Origin: Candidatus Sumerlaeota bacterium
GTDB taxonomy: Bacteria; Sumerlaeota; Sumerlaeia; JAFGJS01
NCBI GenBank assembly: GCA_016928995.1
Contig: JAFGJS010000020.1
Span: forward strand, 1 to 63,696
Direction: 5' to 3'
DNA: 63,696 bases
Shown here: positions 24,042 through 36,905 of the stretch, in pieces
Position numbering within the stretch: position 1 is the stretch's first letter
Layout: the number at the start of each line of letters is the position of its first letter
The notes under the pieces: generated by a model
The model's database searches: none
What the model saw: the letters and a program-made list of their open reading frames with translations, nothing else
What the model was told of the DNA's origin: nothing
Program-made: the position numbers and the translations under genes

Positions 24042-24602
24042 TATGGGCTCCTGTTCGTGATAAGGGGCCCTAAAATCACTCTTTTTCGCAGCATCCTCAA
24101 GCTCAATGCGCGCCGCGCCCATGTCATTGTCAACTGCCGGCGAAAACAGGTTTGAAGCGTTATTAAGGCCCGCAGGGCATCCATGGAAGATGCGTATTTG
24201 TAAGGCGTTTTGAGGCGATGATGAAAATATCACGGCATGCACTTTACAATTGACGGCAGGTGTGCTTTTTTGCTGAACTGTTACTTTGTCTGGGTTGTCT
24301 CGCTTTTTTTATGTAAACGAGGGGGAAGCATTCATTCGCGACGAAATTATGGTTTCGTCCGGGTGTCTTTCATGTCACTGTCAGCGGTTCATAATCCTAT
24401 CATCAACACTGGCGCTTGCGATGACGCGCTGCGCCTGAAAACGGCTGGCGGGATCATGAAATGTAACCGTCCGTTTGATCACGTGAGGCATCGCGCAATT
24501 CATCGGTCATTCGTCCGGCGCTTCCTGTTCGTCATTCAACTTACGCGAAAATTTTTATATTTTTATATAATGTTTCATTTCAAAATGAGAGGGGCGGCAA
24601 TC
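24042..24602. other. Leader region before the large secreted protein
   Basis: About 560 bp. An in-frame extension of the downstream gene runs through it but has no coding appearance. TATAAT occurs at 24566-24571, 32 bases before the ATG, without a good -35. No other structure was recognised. Confidence 0.35.
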
Positions 24603-27600
24603 ATGAAAGGCAAACATTCAACCGTGTGCGGTTTTGCAGCTGTGATCTTATTTTTTATGATGGGTATTGCGTCATTTGGTCAGTATGAACAGACCTTTGC
24701 CACGGTCAATTTTGGCGGCGGTCTGGCTTCTTCCTCATCGTTCGAGATTTGCGACGCCATCGTGCTGATGGGCTCTGGCGGGGAAGCGCAGTCGGGGGAA
24801 GACTATTCGATCAGTTCACCGACGACGGTTGAGCCGACGACATCGACCGTGACGACGTTGACCATGTCGAAAAATCCGGCCGATTCGGGCAGTTATTTGA
24901 CGCTGACGGCGACTGTGACCGTCGTGGAGACTTCTTCGGAGGCGCCCGCGGCGGCGCCGGCGGGCTCGGTATTGTTTTATATGGATAGCGGGTATCTGGG
25001 CAGCGCGCCGCTGGATGCCCAGGGAGTGGCGCAGTATGTCGTACTGCTCGATAGCATTGGCGTCGGCTCCCATACGGTGTATGCGAGTTATGGCGGCTCC
25101 GGCGGTTACGGATCGAGCGATGACACGGATACGCTGGAAGTGGTCGCGGCTGTGCCGGTGATTGAGCTGACCACGACGCCGACTCCGGTGTATGAATGGT
25201 TTTACACGACAATCTTAGGCAGTGTTTCTGCCGAGGCGGCGGGCACAACGCCGACCGGCACGGTTTCCTTGTTGGAATACGGCACCACGCTCACCGTGCA
25301 GACGCTCGATGGGGATGGCGGTTTCAGTTATGATTTGGGCTATCCGTCTCCGGGCGCGCATGAGATCGTGGCGGTCTACAGCGGCGACGTCAACTACGAT
25401 GACGGCGTGACCACTTTCACCTTTGATGTTCTGCCTTTGCCGCAAAGCGTGGTTGTGACGCTGGTCGAGGATGAGGATGACGACGACTACACCACGGGCG
25501 ACCTTTCGTTGCGCGAGGCGCTGGAGATCGTGGATTGGGGCGGCACGATCACGTTCGCTCCGAACGTGACGGGCGTGACGACGCTGACGCTGGGCCAGCT
25601 GGATATTTGGTATGATGTGTCGATCATCGGCCCGGGAGCGGATGTGCTGGCGCTTGACGGCGATTATAACAACCGCGTCATGTGGATTGGCACCGAGGGT
25701 TATCTCAACGTCTACATCAGCGGTCTGACCTTTCAGCATGGAGACGAATACGAAGACGAGGGCGGCGGCATTTGCGCCTATTATACGGATCTCACACTGG
25801 AAGATTGCGTCATCCGGGAAAATGGATGGGATCTCGATGTTGGCGGCGGCATTTACCTGTATGAGTCGTGGGCCACGCTGAACAACTGCGAGATCACGGA
25901 AAATTTCTCTTATTATGAGGGCGGCGGCATCTACCTGGAGTATACGATGGCCACGCTGAACAACTGCGAGATCACTTCGAATATCTCTGAATATTATGGC
26001 GGCGGCGGCATTTACCATTACGAGGGGTCTTCTGAATCAAGTTCGGATACACTGGTCATTCGTCGATGCCTGATTGATGGGAATATCACGTGGGAAGGCT
26101 ATGGCGGCGGTATTTATATCGATGGCGGTTTGTTTGGCGAAGACGACGCGCCCAGCATGGCTCCTGCGAGAGCGACGCCTGGCGGCGGATCGTACGGCTC
26201 CGTCGAAATGCTCCCGGGCGGCGCTTACATCACGGAGAGCGTGATTTCCAATAATTATTCCTACGTTTTCTCATATGAAGGCGGCTGGGGCGGCGGCATG
26301 GAACTTGACGGCGCGGCATGCTATATCAGCGACAGCCGCATCAGCAATAATGCCACGATGGCGCCGTATGACTACTACGAAATGCCTGGCGGCGGAGGCG
26401 GCGTTGACGTGTATGAAAGCTATTTTGCCGCGGAACGCTGCACGTTCGATGGAAACAACGCGGATGAGGGCTTTGGCGGGGCGATTTTGAATGATGCATA
26501 TGGCTATCCGTCTTTGGTGCAGCTGACAGATTGCACGATCAGCAGCAACAGCGCCACCTACGCTGGCGGCGGCGTGATGAACTGGACCGTTTACGGCCCC
26601 ACCGCGCCGGCGGAGGATGGCGTGCTGCCGGCTTCGATGATTATGCCTTATTATCCCGTGGCATATGCGGTGATGACGAACTGCACGGTAGTGGGCAATG
26701 TGATTGATAATTCAGGATGGCCGGTCGAACCGCCATATGCTATCGGCGCGGGTTTGCACGACTGGGTGGAATTTTACGGCGGCGACGGCGATACGGTGAA
26801 CGCGCCGGTCTCCAAGTCTTCCGTGCCGGAATATCTGACGACACAGACATTTACTCTTGAGAACTGCATCGTGGCGGGCAATTACGGCACGACGGACACG
26901 TGGGCGGTCTATGATGTGGGGACCGATTATGTGTTTATCAGCAATGGGCATAATTTGATCGGGAATATGCTCGACGACATCGGTTTCACGACTGCGACGG
27001 AGCAGCTGACGGTTCCGCTGGATGAAGTGATTGAGCTGGAGTTAGCGGACCATGGCGGCTTTGCGCCGACGCATGCCTTGTTCTATAGCAGCCCGGCGTA
27101 TAACACGGGCGACAATGACGCCGTGACCACGGTGATGTTCGACGGTCCGCCTTACCTGGATCAGACGGGCATGCCGCGCATTATTTTCGGCACGGTGGAC
27201 ATCGGGGCGGTGGAGTACGCTCCGCCGGAAATCGGCGTGGATCCGCTGACGCTGGATTTCGGATCGCAAAACATCGACGACGGTCCCGTGACGCTCGAAG
27301 TGCTCATCGCCAGCGCGGGCGCGGATGAACTGGTCTTCACGACCGGCGGCGTTTATCTGACGGGCTCCAACGCGTTCCAGTTCGATCCGTTGCCGGATCT
27401 GTCGCCGATGGATCCCGGCACGACGCGGACGTGGAGCTTGACTTTCGATCCGTACAGCGTGGGGACGCTGACTGCGCAGCTGATCATCTTGTCCAACGCC
27501 GTGACTTCGCCCAGCGTGACTGTGAGCATGACTGGCGAGGGGATTACGGCGGAGATCGGGGTTGATCCAATGACGCTGAACTTCGGCGAGAGGGATGTCG

Positions 27601-29528
27601 ATGACGGCGCGGCGGCTTTGGATCTGACCATTTCCAGCGTGGGCACGGACGATCTGGAATTCACTTCGGGCGGTGTCTACGTCACCAGCGCCCTTGGACA
27701 ATTTGCCTTGGATCCATCGGCGGATCTTTCGCCGATGGCGCCTGGCACGACGCGCACCTGGCAGCTGACTTTTGATCCATCGACGACGGGGGTGAGCGGG
27801 GGCAGCCTGACGATCAATTCGAACGCGCAGACCTCGCCGACCGTCGTAGTCATTCTTACGGGCGTCGGCACGCAGGGTCCGCAGATCACGATCCTCCGCG
27901 ACGTGTCCGTGGTGCAGGGCGGCAATGAAATCACCACGGCTGTGGCTCAGGTCAGCGACACCGAGGATCCAGCCGGGAGCTTGTCCATCGATATGATCCG
28001 GCCGGACGTGCCGGGGCTTGCGGTGACGCTCACGAACAACGGCGGGATCATCGAGGCTGTCGTGCAGGCGGACGCCGGCGTCAGCACCGGTGTTTACACG
28101 ATAACGGTGATCGTGATGGATAGCGATGAGCAGACGGCCGAGGATTCTTTCGACATCACGGTGCTTTCGCCGCTGCTGGCGCGGTACTTCGCGGATGGCC
28201 AGGTGAATATCGACGATGATAATGAGCTCAACTTTGAGACTTTCCTGATGATCTTTAATCCGGATGAATCGGAGACGGCGGAGATTGAAATCACGCTGTA
28301 CTTTGAAAGCGGCGATCCGGTGGTTCTGAATACGCAGGCGGCTCCGATGCAGCGCCGGACGATCAATCTGGGCAATGCGCTGGCGCAACTGGATCTGCAC
28401 GGCGTCCTGCGTTTCGGCATTCGCCTGCTTTCGACGAACAATGTGCCGATTGTCACGGAACGTTCGATGTATTGGAATCCGGGCGGCATTTACCGGGCGG
28501 CAGGCACGTCGAGCGCCGGCGCCGCGGAGCTTTCCAATATCTGGCTGCTGGGCGAGGGAAGCACGACGCTCAATCGCCAAACGGAACTGGCGATGATGAA
28601 TCCGAGCGCAACGGATTCCGTGGTGCGGATTCGTTGGCTGCCGGAAGACGGGGCGATGCAAGACACGATCACCACGGTTTCGGCGCGGAGCCGCGTGACG
28701 ATCAACGCCGCTGATATTGTCGGAGTTGATAATTTCTCGGCAGAGATCGTTTCAACCAACGAGCAGCCCATCGTGGTGGAGCGCACCATGCACGGTCCGG
28801 CGTACGGCATTCCGCGGTTCTGGGGTCATACGGTGCTGGCGCATCCTTCGGCCAGCCCGGAATGGCTGTTCTGCGAGGGCGCCACGCATAGCAACTTTGA
28901 GACGTTCTTTACGATCGGCAATCCGACTTCGGACACGGTGACCGTGAATCTGGACTTCACGTTGCCCGGCGGAACAGCCGTGAATAAGCAGGTCGAGATT
29001 CCGGCTTATCGCCGCTACACCGTGATCACTGAGCGTGATTATCCGGAGCTGACGGATCAGCCTGAATTTTTCACGCGCATCTCGTCGGCGGGCGGCGAGG
29101 ACATCATCGCCGAGCGGTCAGTGTACTTCAGCCTGTTCGGCGGCGACCGCAACGCCGGAGCGGCGAATCTTGGCGCCACGGCGGCGCGGCCGATGTGGCT
29201 GATGGCCGAAGGCGCTGTCGGCGGCGGCTCTCTGTTTGAGACGTTCATCCTGGTGAGCAATCCGAACGACGCAGCCGTCGATGTGGAAATCACGCTGTTC
29301 CCGGACAACGTGCCGAATGAGACGATTAATCTGACGATTGATCCGCACCGGCGCGCGACGGTGAAGGCCAATGATTACCTGCCCGGCGATTTGGGGACGG
29401 TTTCGTTCGCCATCCTCGTGCGATCGACGGGCGGTGAAAACATCATTGCCGAGCGGGTGATGTACTTCCAGGGCGGGCTTGATGTTCCGCGCGCCGGATC
29501 GCATTGCTCGAGCGGCGTCGCCCCGTAA
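24603..29528 (+). CDS. Giant secreted beta-helix mosaic protein
   Basis: 1641-residue exported protein. The signal peptide covers about residues 1-27 (hydrophobic core CGFAAVILFFMMGIASFG). Next are two Ig-like Big_3-type repeats (SGSYLTLTATVTVV, GSVLFYMDSGYLG, then TGTVSLLEYGT, HEIVAVYSGDVNY). Then comes a long right-handed beta-helix with repeated GGGIYLYES, NNCEITENFS and ATLNNCEIT rungs, which begins with SLREALEIVDWGGTITFAP and ends in a choice-of-anchor block (HALFYSSPAYNTGD). Two HYDIN/ASH-like domains follow (IGVDPLTLDFGSQNIDD and IGVDPMTLNFGERDVDD), then a cadherin-like domain. Four C-terminal repeats of about 95 residues carry NFETFLMIFNPDESET, FETFFTIGNPTSD and FETFILVSNPNDAA. ATG 24603 is preceded by GAGAGGGGCGG. 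A surface or extracellular adhesive or glycan-binding role is inferred. No sorting tail is visible. Confidence 0.8.
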   Translation: MKGKHSTVCGFAAVILFFMMGIASFGQYEQTFATVNFGGGLASSSSFEICDAIVLMGSGGEAQSGEDYSISSPTTVEPTTSTVTTLTMSKNPADSGSYLTLTATVTVVETSSEAPAAAPAGSVLFYMDSGYLGSAPLDAQGVAQYVVLLDSIGVGSHTVYASYGGSGGYGSSDDTDTLEVVAAVPVIELTTTPTPVYEWFYTTILGSVSAEAAGTTPTGTVSLLEYGTTLTVQTLDGDGGFSYDLGYPSPGAHEIVAVYSGDVNYDDGVTTFTFDVLPLPQSVVVTLVEDEDDDDYTTGDLSLREALEIVDWGGTITFAPNVTGVTTLTLGQLDIWYDVSIIGPGADVLALDGDYNNRVMWIGTEGYLNVYISGLTFQHGDEYEDEGGGICAYYTDLTLEDCVIRENGWDLDVGGGIYLYESWATLNNCEITENFSYYEGGGIYLEYTMATLNNCEITSNISEYYGGGGIYHYEGSSESSSDTLVIRRCLIDGNITWEGYGGGIYIDGGLFGEDDAPSMAPARATPGGGSYGSVEMLPGGAYITESVISNNYSYVFSYEGGWGGGMELDGAACYISDSRISNNATMAPYDYYEMPGGGGGVDVYESYFAAERCTFDGNNADEGFGGAILNDAYGYPSLVQLTDCTISSNSATYAGGGVMNWTVYGPTAPAEDGVLPASMIMPYYPVAYAVMTNCTVVGNVIDNSGWPVEPPYAIGAGLHDWVEFYGGDGDTVNAPVSKSSVPEYLTTQTFTLENCIVAGNYGTTDTWAVYDVGTDYVFISNGHNLIGNMLDDIGFTTATEQLTVPLDEVIELELADHGGFAPTHALFYSSPAYNTGDNDAVTTVMFDGPPYLDQTGMPRIIFGTVDIGAVEYAPPEIGVDPLTLDFGSQNIDDGPVTLEVLIASAGADELVFTTGGVYLTGSNAFQFDPLPDLSPMDPGTTRTWSLTFDPYSVGTLTAQLIILSNAVTSPSVTVSMTGEGITAEIGVDPMTLNFGERDVDDGAAALDLTISSVGTDDLEFTSGGVYVTSALGQFALDPSADLSPMAPGTTRTWQLTFDPSTTGVSGGSLTINSNAQTSPTVVVILTGVGTQGPQITILRDVSVVQGGNEITTAVAQVSDTEDPAGSLSIDMIRPDVPGLAVTLTNNGGIIEAVVQADAGVSTGVYTITVIVMDSDEQTAEDSFDITVLSPLLARYFADGQVNIDDDNELNFETFLMIFNPDESETAEIEITLYFESGDPVVLNTQAAPMQRRTINLGNALAQLDLHGVLRFGIRLLSTNNVPIVTERSMYWNPGGIYRAAGTSSAGAAELSNIWLLGEGSTTLNRQTELAMMNPSATDSVVRIRWLPEDGAMQDTITTVSARSRVTINAADIVGVDNFSAEIVSTNEQPIVVERTMHGPAYGIPRFWGHTVLAHPSASPEWLFCEGATHSNFETFFTIGNPTSDTVTVNLDFTLPGGTAVNKQVEIPAYRRYTVITERDYPELTDQPEFFTRISSAGGEDIIAERSVYFSLFGGDRNAGAANLGATAARPMWLMAEGAVGGGSLFETFILVSNPNDAAVDVEITLFPDNVPNETINLTIDPHRRATVKANDYLPGDLGTVSFAILVRSTGGENIIAERVMYFQGGLDVPRAGSHCSSGVAP

Positions 29529-31120: not shown

Positions 31121-31199
31121 CTCGGCGATCATCTCCTGACCGCTTGATGGCGGCGCCTTCTTGATTTTACATCGGCGAACATTGACGGCCATCGGCTTC

Positions 31200-31880
31200 A
31201 TGAAAAGATTCTGTGTGCGTTATTGGCTTTCCATCACGCTGGTTTCCGGCGCGGCTGTTTGTATTCTATTGATCGGATTCACTCCTGCAGGTCAGCGTTT
31301 GGCGTGGGTGGCGCTCAATCGTCTGCATGGCGATTCCACGGTGTCAGCAGATGCATTGCATGCGGCTCAATCGCGATTGCGTCAGGCCGTCGGCGATGAT
31401 GAACTGGTCCTGCCTTTGCCGGACGCCCGCATCGTCATCGACAAATCGGAACGGCGGCTGAGCCTCTACGATGGCGAGCGGTTGATTAAGACGTATCGCG
31501 TGGGTCTGGGCAGCCATTCGGAAGGAGATAAGCAGCGCGAGGGGGATCGGCGCACTCCGACGGGAAACTATCATGTCTGCACACGGCTGAAACGCTCCCA
31601 ATACCATTTGTTTCTTGGCTTGAATTACCCAAATGCGGATGACGCCCGGATTGCGTTAAGCGAAAATCACATTGGCGCTGAGCTCGCCGCTGAGCTCGAA
31701 CGGGCGGAAAAGAATCATAAACAGCCGGCCTGGGATACGGCGCTGGGCGGAGCGATCGGCATCCATGGCGGCGGGTGCAAGTACGATTGGACTTTGGGCT
31801 GCATCGCGCTGGAGGATTTCGCGATTGAGGAGCTCTGGGTCTCCACGCGGTATTGGACGCCGGTGCGGATTGAAGAGTAA
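31200..31880 (+). CDS. L,D-transpeptidase (YkuD domain)
   Basis: Peptidoglycan or lipoprotein crosslinking enzyme anchored by an N-terminal membrane helix (residues 9-26, WLSITLVSGAAVCILLIG). The YkuD domain starts DARIVIDKSERRLSLYDG, continues YRVGLGSHSEGDKQREGDRR and TPTGNYHVCTR, and ends with the active site IGIHGGGCKYDWTLGCIALE. His and Cys of HGGG...TxGCIAL are the catalytic pair; the usual Ser is Thr here. I chose ATG 31200, which gives a normal anchor. 226 residues. Located after an unrecognised lipoprotein gene. Confidence 0.88.
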   Translation: MKRFCVRYWLSITLVSGAAVCILLIGFTPAGQRLAWVALNRLHGDSTVSADALHAAQSRLRQAVGDDELVLPLPDARIVIDKSERRLSLYDGERLIKTYRVGLGSHSEGDKQREGDRRTPTGNYHVCTRLKRSQYHLFLGLNYPNADDARIALSENHIGAELAAELERAEKNHKQPAWDTALGGAIGIHGGGCKYDWTLGCIALEDFAIEELWVSTRYWTPVRIEE

Positions 31881-32328: not shown

Positions 32329-33495
32329 CTAATCCATGAATCGGACATCGAGGACTTCTCCGGGGATGAACACCCCTGGCTCGTATTCGCCGATCAGGCA
32401 GGCCAGCCCAAAGCGCGGCAGATCCGGATCTGGTCTCAAGCGCATGGGGAAGCGTTCAATCTGTACGCCGACTTTCAGCACGCGGCCCGGAATGGCCTGT
32501 CGCGGACGGCGGCGGGTGTATAGCATCACGTCCATGTTCGCGACGACATCGTTCGCCGCGGATTGATCGACGTAGGCGATCACGAATTTCGATTCGCTGG
32601 ATTGGACATCAAACAAGGCCGATCCGCGCATGACTGTCTCGCCGGGTTGAATCGCAATCTGCGCCACGGTTCCTTCGATCGGGGCTTTCAGCAGGAGCTG
32701 CTCGCGCTGCTCCATCAGCTGGGAGATGACGGCGTCCTGCACGGCGACGGCTTGCTTGACCGGCGCCAGCGTTTTATCGGAAGGCATCGGATAATCCGGA
32801 CTTTCGGAGGTTTCGCCCGTTTCCACCTGCTGCGCTTCCATCCGCCGCGTTTTCGCGGAAGCCCAAAGCTCCCGCGCCATGGCGATGGCGTTCTCATTTT
32901 CCTCGATCCGCGCTTGCAGTGTTTTCACCTTGGCGCGAGCCGCATCGATCACGGTTTGTTGCTGAATCCCCTGCAAATTTTCCTGACGCTGCAGAATCAC
33001 CTCTAAATAATTGAGCTCGGCCTTGTCTTCTTCCCGCTGCGCGATGCGATCCAGCACGTCAAGGTGCGCGCGTTCTTCGTCAATTTGAAAACGGCGTTGA
33101 TCCAAGACCTTTTGCTGACCGGCCGCCAGCCGGTCCAGCTGCAACTGCTCCTGCGCCGCGTCCAGCTCGGCTTGCAGCCGCTTGAGCTCCTCTTGCGCGG
33201 TCTTCAACTCCGCCTTCCAGGCTGCATCGTCGATGATGCCCAGCAATTGCCCTTTGACGACCTGGTCGAACAAGGCGACTGTGATCGCCGAGACTTCGCC
33301 GTCCACCAGGCATATGGCCGGCGCTCGTTTTTCTTCGACAATCCCCACCGCATCGATGGTTTGCAGGTTTCCCTTGCCGAGCAGGATCAGCGCACAAATC
33401 GCGCCGACCCATGTGGCGAGGGGGATATATCTGCGGCGCAGCAACTGAACGTGCTGCCGCAATGGAATTTTTTGTTTAGAACCGTTAGCCATCAT
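32329..33495 (-). CDS. HlyD-type membrane fusion/adaptor protein
   Basis: Periplasmic adaptor of 388 residues anchored by one N-terminal helix (YIPLATWVGAICALILLGKG). A short lipoyl/barrel half (VDGEVSAITVALFDQVVKGQ) precedes a long alpha-hairpin coiled coil (about residues 85-225, e.g. KTAQEELKRLQAELDAAQEQ). The second lipoyl half follows (LLLKAPIEGTVAQIAIQPGE), then a beta-barrel (IPGRVLKVGVQIERF). These proteins bridge inner membrane transporters to outer membrane ducts. Here the only partner genes are a DUF4956 membrane protein and a VTC polymerase, and no ABC or RND pump is present. ATG 33495 overlaps the stop of the DUF4956 gene (ATGA). Confidence 0.85.
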   Translation of the reverse strand: MMANGSKQKIPLRQHVQLLRRRYIPLATWVGAICALILLGKGNLQTIDAVGIVEEKRAPAICLVDGEVSAITVALFDQVVKGQLLGIIDDAAWKAELKTAQEELKRLQAELDAAQEQLQLDRLAAGQQKVLDQRRFQIDEERAHLDVLDRIAQREEDKAELNYLEVILQRQENLQGIQQQTVIDAARAKVKTLQARIEENENAIAMARELWASAKTRRMEAQQVETGETSESPDYPMPSDKTLAPVKQAVAVQDAVISQLMEQREQLLLKAPIEGTVAQIAIQPGETVMRGSALFDVQSSESKFVIAYVDQSAANDVVANMDVMLYTRRRPRQAIPGRVLKVGVQIERFPMRLRPDPDLPRFGLACLIGEYEPGVFIPGEVLDVRFMD

Positions 33496-34184
33496 ACTTC
33501 CGCTTGCTCCTCCTGTGCGACAAATGTGATGTTCGACACCCCGCCCACAGCGGATAATTCCTGCACCATCCGGTCGCACTTGCGCGGATCGCGCATGATC
33601 AGACGGTAAGCGACTTCGCCCATGCCTTCGTCATGAAAGCGCTGCGAAACCAGCTGCGACGAACGGCAATGGCGCGCGAGCAATCCTCGAATCGGATCCA
33701 GCCCGGCTTCCGATCCTTCCAGATTGAAGCGCAGGAAACCGTCGCATGTCAAGCGTCCGCCGAACCGCGACCAATGCAAATAGCACAGCAGCACGCAAAA
33801 GACCAGCGCGCTGAGAATGCTCAGACGATAATTATATGTGCCCGTGCCCATGCCCGTAATCAAGGCGAAAAAGATAAACGCTGTATCGCGCGTATCCTTC
33901 AGAATATTGCGGAAACGGATCACGGATAGCGCGCCGATCAAGCCGAAGGCGATCACGATGTTGCTGCCGATGACCATCATCGCCATGCAGACCACCATCG
34001 TTAAGATCACGATCGATTGCACAAACGCGCGTGAATATGAGAGGCCCTGATGGGTGTATATATACACCCAGGCCGCGGACTGGCCGAGCACGAACGCCAG
34101 CAGAAAGCTCGCCAGCGCCTGCCCAATGTTAAAGGTGCCGGGACCGACATCCCCCATCATCACTAACTCGCGCATTACATTCAT
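33492..34184 (-). CDS. DUF4956 membrane protein
   Basis: Polytopic protein of 230 residues with four or five membrane helices in residues 20-140 and a cytoplasmic C-terminal domain. The DUF4956 signature is clear: FGLIGALSVIRFRNILKDTR, then DTAFIFFALITGMGTGTYN. The soluble end (SQRFHDEGMGEVAYRLIMRD, PRKCDRMVQELSAVGGVSNI) looks like the ACT-like or ferredoxin-like tail common in this family. DUF4956 genes are known to accompany VTC-domain genes, and a role with polyphosphate is often supposed but not shown. It follows the VTC gene by 25 bases and overlaps the HlyD gene by 4. Confidence 0.85.
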   Translation of the reverse strand: MNVMRELVMMGDVGPGTFNIGQALASFLLAFVLGQSAAWVYIYTHQGLSYSRAFVQSIVILTMVVCMAMMVIGSNIVIAFGLIGALSVIRFRNILKDTRDTAFIFFALITGMGTGTYNYRLSILSALVFCVLLCYLHWSRFGGRLTCDGFLRFNLEGSEAGLDPIRGLLARHCRSSQLVSQRFHDEGMGEVAYRLIMRDPRKCDRMVQELSAVGGVSNITFVAQEEQAEV

Positions 34185-34209
34185 GTTCCAATCACCTCGA
34201 CGTGCTGGT

Positions 34210-35034
34210 TTAATCGTTCGCCATAATCACGTGGTCCCTGCTGGTCCACATGATGTCGTCATCGTGAATTCCGCCCCATTGCTGCATCGCGCCTTCACGC
34301 TTGAGCGAATGCATGCAGTAGCAGTACTTGGCGAAGTTATCCTGGCGAAGCCCAAAATGACGGACAAAATCCTGCACCCATACGGGGAAATTGTCCGAAA
34401 ACTTAATCTCGAGAATCACCGGGGCGTCCAATTGACGCCAGCGGTGGTCGTATTGCCAGATCGCGTTTGAATATTCGGGAGCCTCCAGCGCCGACAATTT
34501 ACGGTCGAAGGTGATGCGCACGGCGTCGCCCAGGCGGCTGATGTAAGGCTCGCGCATATACCAGACCATCACCTTGGGCTTGGCGTCCAACTGTTCAAGA
34601 TAGTCCCGGAATTGATAAAACGCGGCTTTGTCTCTGGCGGATTTGTTCGCAAAATCCTCTTCGACGACCACCTGGCGATCCAGCATTTTGCGGATCACCT
34701 GGCGATGCATGAAGGCGCGATCTTTCAGGATGACTTGATTGATGCGGCGCTTGATTTCAAAAATCACGGGTTCGTTTTCATCCGCCGAGTAGGCCCGGAT
34801 GCGCAATTTGATCCGGTTTTTTTCACCCAGCATCGAACTCCAATAGAGAGACAGGGCGTCGTTGTCTAAGTATAAACTATTAATCGGATAGGAATCCCCA
34901 TAGCATTTCACATGAGGATCTTGTATGAGAAAAGGCTCCAGATGCATCGACATCTGGTGTGCTTCGCGCTCGGTGAGATGATACTTCGCCTCAAACCGTT
35001 GCGCCGTGGTGTTATGCGCCCCGTTATCCTTCAT
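34210..35034 (-). CDS. VTC-domain polyphosphate polymerase
   Basis: 274-residue protein made of a VTC domain, a tunnel-fold ATP-dependent polyphosphate polymerase related to yeast Vtc4 and to triphosphate tunnel enzymes. Tunnel motifs are QRFEAKYHLTEREAHQM, INSLYLDND, RIKLRIRAYS (basic residues for phosphate), VIFEIKRRINQVILKDRAFM, VRITFDRKLSALEAPEYS and PVILEIKFSDNFPVW, with the metal-binding Glu in LEIKFS, and an Arg/Lys-rich end with FAKYCYCMHSLKREG. No SPX or membrane domain is attached, so any channel must be supplied by the DUF4956 partner. It is first in the three-gene operon. ATG 35034 follows an AT-rich upstream region. Confidence 0.88.
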   Translation of the reverse strand: MKDNGAHNTTAQRFEAKYHLTEREAHQMSMHLEPFLIQDPHVKCYGDSYPINSLYLDNDALSLYWSSMLGEKNRIKLRIRAYSADENEPVIFEIKRRINQVILKDRAFMHRQVIRKMLDRQVVVEEDFANKSARDKAAFYQFRDYLEQLDAKPKVMVWYMREPYISRLGDAVRITFDRKLSALEAPEYSNAIWQYDHRWRQLDAPVILEIKFSDNFPVWVQDFVRHFGLRQDNFAKYCYCMHSLKREGAMQQWGGIHDDDIMWTSRDHVIMAND

Positions 35035-35810: not shown

Positions 35811-36905
35811 TTATGGCTTAAGGTGTTCCCGTACGTTTCGCAGATGGTCGTTATAGCGGGCGGCAAAGACGTGCGTTCCGTCGCCTTTGGAGCAGTAATA
35901 CAGATAATCGCTTTCAGCGGGCTTCAGCGCCGCGCGCAGGGCGGTCATGCCGGGGGATCCGATCGGCCCCGGCGGCAAACCCTTGCGCCGATAGGTGTTA
36001 TACGGCGAATCCGTCCGCAGATCTTCCGTAGTCAGATCGCGCTCCCAGACGTTCAGCGCATAACGCACGGTTGCGTCGCAATCCAGTTTCATGCCGCGTT
36101 TGAGCCGGTTCAGATACACCGAGGCGATGAGGGGCATTTCATCCGCGGTAGCCGTTTCGCGTTCGATCATCGAGGCCAGCGTCACGGCCTCGGTCCAGGT
36201 CAGTCCCTGGGGCGGATCGTCCGCGCGCAAGGCCTCGGTCTGGCTCATGAATGTCGCGGCCATCCGCCGCAAGGCGTCCTCGGCGTCATCGCCCGGCGCG
36301 AAAAAATAGGTTTCGGGCCAGAGAAATCCCTCCAATGACTCTATTTCGATCAATGTGTGGCTTCGGATCCACTCCGGCGAGGCGGCGAGTTGCAGCGCTG
36401 TTTCGGGATCGGAGGTCAGTCCGGCGCCGGCGATGCGCTGCGCGATTTGCCGCAGCGTGAAGCCCTCCGGCACGGTCAGGCGGATGGGCGCGCCGCGCAC
36501 GAGGCGTTGATGCAATTCGCGCAGGCTGATCGAGGAGTCGAGCTCATACACGCCGGGCTGCAGCTGCCGCGTGGTTCCTTCGCGCATCGCCAGCAGCACC
36601 AGCGGCCACTTGCTGCGCAGCAGTCCCGCGCGCGTCAAGCGTTCCGCAATCGTGCCGAAGGAATCGCCGCGCCGGATGACCACCTGCGTTTGAAACGCCG
36701 GCGCGTAAAGCGGGGCGTCCAGTGCCTGCTCAAACGCCCATGCGGCAAGCAACGATAATCCGGCTAGCGCGATCAAGACAATAACGACAGTACGCAGCCA
36801 ACGCCTGGGTTTATGCGGGCGAGCTGCATCGCCAGCGACCGGCGCATCGTCACGTTTGGCATCCTGCGGCTCTGGCGGGGAAGCGGATTCGGAATCGCAC
36901 ATCAT
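35811..36905 (-). CDS. mltG: Endolytic transglycosylase MltG
   Basis: YceG/MltG enzyme, 364 residues, which cuts nascent glycan strands to end their elongation. A basic cytoplasmic N-terminus is followed by one membrane helix (TVVIVLIALAGLSLLAAWAF) and a LysM-like subdomain (VVIRRGDSFGTIAERLTRAG). The catalytic YceG domain has LEGFLWPETYFF, ASMIERETATADEMPLIASV (catalytic Glu in ERET), YLNRLKRGMKLDCDATVRYA, SPYNTYRRKGLPPGPIGSPG and a C-terminal FAARYNDH. All family motifs are intact. Confidence 0.92.
   Translation of the reverse strand: MMCDSESASPPEPQDAKRDDAPVAGDAARPHKPRRWLRTVVIVLIALAGLSLLAAWAFEQALDAPLYAPAFQTQVVIRRGDSFGTIAERLTRAGLLRSKWPLVLLAMREGTTRQLQPGVYELDSSISLRELHQRLVRGAPIRLTVPEGFTLRQIAQRIAGAGLTSDPETALQLAASPEWIRSHTLIEIESLEGFLWPETYFFAPGDDAEDALRRMAATFMSQTEALRADDPPQGLTWTEAVTLASMIERETATADEMPLIASVYLNRLKRGMKLDCDATVRYALNVWERDLTTEDLRTDSPYNTYRRKGLPPGPIGSPGMTALRAALKPAESDYLYYCSKGDGTHVFAARYNDHLRNVREHLKP

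Follow-up and report, generated by a model that had tools for sequence, protein, structure and literature searches.

The closest described relatives of the system analysed here are the yeast VTC complex, the Pel loci of Gram-positive bacteria, the MgtC proteins of Salmonella and Mycobacterium, and the tripartite pumps. The yeast complex (Vtc1/3/4) builds polyphosphate chains at the entrance of a basic channel in the membrane, chain growth being coupled to translocation (PMC9911596). Features of its own are SPX domains and a 15-helix channel built from the membrane domains of the VTC subunits. In the Pel loci of Streptococcus, Clostridium and Bifidobacterium (SIR_1592-1594 of S. intermedius), a VTC-type polymerase adjoins an MgtC/ACT (DUF4956) protein; CotH-VTC-DUF4956 trios accompany these loci, and Pel and aggregation are both reduced when the genes for MgtC-ACT and CotH are deleted (PMC7112168, PMC12345266). 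No adaptor or outer-membrane OEP is reported from them, and the trio is tied to Pel synthesis or CotH. MgtC proteins regulate ATP synthase and phosphate uptake and are known as stand-alone regulators; DUF4956 is instead linked to genes for VTC, CotH or adaptor/OEP. We could find no dedicated machine known to place polyphosphate on or outside the bacterial surface.

The window, a 63,696-nucleotide stretch of DNA from a Candidatus Sumerlaeota bacterium, carries a three-gene operon on its minus strand. Gene 1 (34210..35034; 274 aa) encodes a VTC polyphosphate polymerase domain protein (Pfam VTC 104 bits, cut-off 23) and is followed, after a 25-bp spacer (34185..34209), by gene 2 (33492..34184; 230 aa), which encodes a DUF4956 protein (46.8 bits, cut-off 30.6). 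The DUF4956 stop codon overlaps the start of gene 3 in an ATGA (-4 bp; 33492..33495), and from this ATG gene 3 (32329..33495) encodes a 388-aa HlyD/EmrA-type periplasmic adaptor (HlyD_3 41.9 bits, cut-off 22.2; HlyD_D23). Both spacings, read from the sequence, are exactly those given in an earlier, sequence-only reading of the locus, and its call of an adaptor with an alpha hairpin as third member is upheld by the HlyD_3 and HlyD_D23 matches and an EmrA-like profile. The absence of a pump, which it had also remarked on, is borne out: the neighbours are an L,D-transpeptidase gene at the operon end and facing it (31161-31880, plus strand) and a YceG/MltG gene upstream (35811-36905, minus strand), no ABC, RND or MFS gene flanks the window operon, and no such family recurs beside the operons of relatives. 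Beyond the operon end, on the opposite strand, lies a gene for a 1763-aa secreted protein (24237-29528) with Ig-like and parallel-repeat-like sequence.

The VTC protein shares with the yeast complex its TTM polymerase fold, its tunnel residues and, presumably, synthesis that is coupled to movement across the membrane. An AlphaFold2 model shows a TTM barrel (pLDDT 90, pTM 0.86) with a confident soluble core at about residues 9-250, disordered ends and no membrane domain, as the sequence-only reading had proposed, and the best Foldseek matches to this model were all yeast Vtc proteins (TM 0.61-0.72; Vtc4 at E 7e-15). Six residues, R78, R80, K95, R161, E209 and K236, are invariant in 64 homologues. 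In a profile alignment, in which Vtc4 chain numbers run 3 ahead of native numbering, R78, R80 and E209 fall on Vtc4 R264, R266 and E426, the residues changed to inactivate the yeast enzyme (PMC9911596). The prediction that an active-site Glu and basic residues form a tunnel thus holds in a modelled Vtc4 tunnel fold with conserved equivalents of these three residues. The remaining K95, R161 and K236 correspond to Vtc4 K281, R361 and K458, of which we take R361 and K458 to be catalytic. Judged by this fold and these residues, the window VTC probably makes polyphosphate chains; a literature search found no biochemical work on a bacterial VTC. PPK1 had no match in the genome of the window (92% complete), where VTC may be the main polyphosphate synthase, going by the search for PPK1. 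A general role of VTC as a replacement for PPK1 is ruled out, as PPK1 is also present in 7 of the 11 operon-bearing genomes.

Unlike in yeast, the membrane part of the window system is an MgtC-like protein, and the presumed target is the envelope, not the vacuole. The model of the DUF4956 protein (pLDDT 86) contains five membrane helices (residues 20-44, 50-72, 76-88, 91-115 and 119-139) and a C-terminal ACT-like domain (residues 149-223) of beta-alpha-beta-beta-alpha-beta topology. Its motif G(L/F)(I/M)GA...RFRN.LKDTRDT resembles MgtC, and from this lead the relation was tested. The MgtC family model placed two DUF4956 proteins over the cut-off and the DUF4956 protein of the G005 triad at 2.7e-4. 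PF02308 matched 40 of 65 triad-type DUF4956 members weakly (E<=0.05, best 1.9e-5) and gave no match with the window protein alone; hhalign of DUF4956 against an MgtC alignment (other genomes) returned prob 97 and E 7.8e-11 over both domains. Foldseek ranked the C-terminal domain of mycobacterial MgtC third for the model (2lqj, prob 1.00, 20% identity), and VIA-align found only ACT/ferredoxin-like domain matches, none covering the membrane part. We conclude that DUF4956 is an MgtC relative with an ACT domain, for the membrane domain on the strength of sequence comparison, sharing with MgtC of Salmonella and Mycobacterium the membrane domain motif and the C-terminal ACT-like domain. The sequence-only reading was right to call it a membrane protein, but the protein is not an anonymous one. 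As the streptococcal homologue SIR_1592 has already been described as MgtC plus ACT (PMC12345266, 2025), our analysis confirms and extends this relation and does not claim its discovery.

The adaptor consists of an N-terminal membrane anchor, a split lipoyl domain, a long alpha hairpin and a beta barrel, and the best PDB match of its profile is EmrA (4tko, E 1.2e-26, over profile 66-359). The genome of the window encodes several other HlyD-like proteins; its own triad adaptor scores 481 bits and the next adaptor 53 bits, indicating that the triad adaptor forms a distinct subfamily. At the hairpin tip, residues 170-181 form an RLT/RLS-type motif, RQENLQGIQQQT (32953..32988, minus strand), of the RxxxLxxxxxx(S/T) kind through which HlyD, MacA and AcrA bind TolC (PMC3391258). 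The strict form RxxxLx6[ST] occurs at the tip in 14 of 72 adaptors (shuffle mean 1.5, maximum 7 of 500), against 0-2 at other positions of the protein; planctomycete adaptors with an adjacent OEP are mostly without the motif arginine. With this motif, the window adaptor is predicted to reach an outer-membrane channel by TolC docking. EmrAB-TolC, MacAB-TolC and HlyBD-TolC, as tripartite pumps or type 1 secretion systems, resemble the operon in the EmrA-like adaptor, the RLS/RLT tip motif and the OEP of its relatives, but where they have an ABC, RND or MFS transporter, the operon has an MgtC-like protein.

To compare relatives, we scanned with a DUF4956 alignment, taking one genome per species, and analysed as loci the best 80 of 294 relatives, a selection biased towards loci most like the window DUF4956. 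A TolC-type OEP (PF02321) directly follows the adaptor in 16 of these best 80 of 294 loci, comprising 15 planctomycete loci and L031, whose OEP is weak by Pfam and scores 99.8 by hhalign against an OEP set that includes L031 itself. In L112 the OEP lies one gene further from the adaptor, and OEP calls in L043 and L092, possibly overlapping frames, were left out of the count. The operon in the window contains no OEP gene, and OEP genes are present elsewhere in its genome. Two relatives of the same class carry a DUF4956-OEP-HlyD operon (L037:7314-11064 in G009; L039 in G016), and a search of both genomes returned no VTC match anywhere. A plasmid of Hymenobacter volaticus (NZ_CP095062.1; L201:4796-8051) has three consecutive genes, for an adaptor-like protein, DUF4956 and TolC, and no VTC with them; the adaptor-like protein scores 90 by hhalign against 0.1 for controls, and the set is a possible MgtC-type tripartite exporter in Bacteroidota. 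These OEP neighbours and VTC-less sets suggest that the recurring unit is DUF4956 with the adaptor, in some cases with an OEP, and that VTC is mostly its feeding enzyme.

Our favoured reading, for which we consider the case evenly balanced, is that, in a cell with two membranes, the operon encodes a machine that exports polyphosphate as it polymerises it and has the MgtC-like protein where a pump would stand. The cytosolic VTC domain would make polyphosphate from ATP inside its basic tunnel, and DUF4956 would thread the chain through the inner membrane, replacing the pump of tripartite systems, and might use its ACT domain as a ligand sensor. In the periplasm, the HlyD-type adaptor would then collect the chain and dock onto a channel of the TolC family, whose gene adjoins that of the adaptor in some relatives and which is presumably supplied in trans in the genome of the window. 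Synthesis itself would be the driving force, by analogy with yeast VTC. The gene set and its conservation, the folds, the catalytic residues, the TolC-docking motif and the OEP neighbours are observations; we infer here the polyphosphate product, the conduit role of DUF4956, complex formation, the direction of movement and the crossing of the outer membrane. The idea of export gains support from the adjacent OEP in 16 loci, the RLT motif at the adaptor tip and the DUF4956-adaptor-TolC sets without VTC; counting against this reading, the window operon has no OEP gene, the strict tip motif occurs in a minority of adaptors (14 of 72), and MgtC proteins are not known as channels. The triad is conserved in scores of genomes, and on that basis its carriers probably feed polyphosphate into or through the envelope. 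More tentatively, and with doubt outweighing confidence, we propose that the operon represents a new class of exporter across the envelope: an MgtC-type protein, in place of an ABC, RND or MFS pump, would be the inner-membrane partner of an HlyD adaptor and a TolC-type channel, and synthesis of the polyphosphate would itself drive it out. The operon would suggest an inner-membrane partner for TolC systems beyond the three known transporter classes and a direct part for MgtC-family proteins in the transport or protection of phosphate polymers. Its identified genes, catalytic residues and docking motif make surface delivery of polyphosphate open to test.

A rather unlikely alternative is that polyphosphate reaches only the periplasm or outer envelope, where it would be used by secreted CotH kinases or in a surface matrix that is phosphorylated and binds metals, and that the adaptor is a periplasmic scaffold with no through-channel. 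CotH kinases (PF08757), often as lamin-tail fusions, are encoded no more than 7 kb away in 23 of the best 80 of 294 loci, and VTC-DUF4956 is typically paired with CotH in Gram-positives and in another phylum; in Gram-positives such as Planococcus and Pseudobutyrivibrio, CotH takes the place of the adaptor beside VTC-DUF4956. The genome of the window has seven CotH domain matches, none of them on the contig of the window, and no OEP is linked to the operon there. Surface proteins modified by CotH may have exported polyphosphate as their phosphate donor or as a counter-polymer. An envelope-only role accounts less well for the OEP that directly follows the adaptor in 16 of the best 80 of 294 loci, for the DUF4956-adaptor-TolC sets without VTC and for the RLT motif at the adaptor tip.

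Also unlikely, in our estimate, is that what DUF4956, the adaptor and OEP export is not polyphosphate but a polysaccharide or a component of the surface, with VTC and the ACT domain contributing regulation, energy or phosphorylation. The attachment of the Gram-positive trio to Pel loci, where gene deletions lower Pel and aggregation, points this way (PMC7112168, PMC12345266), as do DUF4956-adaptor sets without VTC, including two Verrucomicrobia loci among the best 80 of 294 that have no VTC nearby. CotH is common to Pel loci and many of the loci studied here; the third gene of the triad, however, is an HlyD-type adaptor with no polysaccharide genes alongside, and neither a glycosyltransferase nor any other biosynthetic gene recurs beside the triad in the loci of relatives. 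We also observed VTC-DUF4956-CotH loci in which the displayed stretch contains no Pel genes, in contrast to PMC12345266, in which the trio was not found outside Pel loci. Counting further against another substrate, VTC lies directly upstream of DUF4956 in 78 of the best 80 of 294 loci (77 scripted calls plus L108, where a frame overlap masked VTC), and its catalytic residues are invariant. Across 61 genomes searched, comprising the window's own, relatives and some distant ones, VTC was found in 15, all 15 of which also encode DUF4956. Loci retrieved from relatives keep the order VTC-DUF4956-adaptor.

The sequence-only reading had made much depend on whether the adaptor co-occurs with VTC and DUF4956 elsewhere, and it does: an adaptor lies directly downstream of DUF4956 in 75 of 75 loci with enough contig among the best 80 of 294, the contigs of the other five ending at most 184 bases past DUF4956. 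Gaps are no longer than 50 bp in 74 of 75 cases for the adaptor and 74 of 77 for VTC (best 80 of 294 loci). The titles of these loci name Sumerlaeota, Hydrogenedentota, Planctomycetota and Verrucomicrobiota, apart from a few unusual MAG labels, and conserved order over at least four phyla rules out chance adjacency of the three genes. The three proteins have correlated pairwise distances (rho 0.57-0.75; no permutation above 0.16), most strongly for DUF4956 and the adaptor (rho 0.75, permutation maximum 0.13, calculated with no species-tree control); the species history common to the three proteins contributes to this correlation. That the genes are ordinary neighbours without a common function is scarcely credible: HlyD adaptors are generic and the genome of the window has several more, but the unbroken adjacency across phyla in these best 80 of 294 loci, the correlated divergence and the distance of the triad adaptor from the other adaptors of its genome (481 versus 53 bits) all count against it.

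What appears to be new is the adaptor/OEP extension. A search of journal papers, largely open-access ones, found none in which an adaptor or TolC is linked to VTC or DUF4956, and to this extent the sequence-only reading was right to consider the three-protein machine undescribed; VTC-DUF4956 itself is known from published Gram-positive Pel loci with CotH, a pairing that the same reading had recognised (PMC7112168, PMC12345266). The adaptor is confined to certain lineages. In a different phylum, sampled through G055, DUF4956 is present in 24 of 149 genomes, and the seven loci read with VTC mostly include CotH as well; an adaptor is present in only one of them, L180, in the order DUF4956-adaptor-unknown-VTC. 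The VTC-DUF4956-CotH loci of this phylum and of Gram-positives, being without an adaptor, indicate that the adaptor is not needed for the core function.

Several loci contain further proteins of note. Between the adaptor and VTC, L180 (7673-8956; G080) encodes a secreted protein of 427 aa that belongs to no known family; Pfam, BLASTP and hhalign gave no support for it as a diverged OEP. In the place of the adaptor after VTC-DUF4956, L032 (2502-3680; G014) encodes a 392-aa membrane-anchored protein with no Pfam match, which hhalign ruled out as an adaptor. A different context is seen in L184, L185, L188 and L189 of the phylum sampled through G055, where DUF4956 follows two genes with CheR- and CheD-like (chemotaxis) N-termini.
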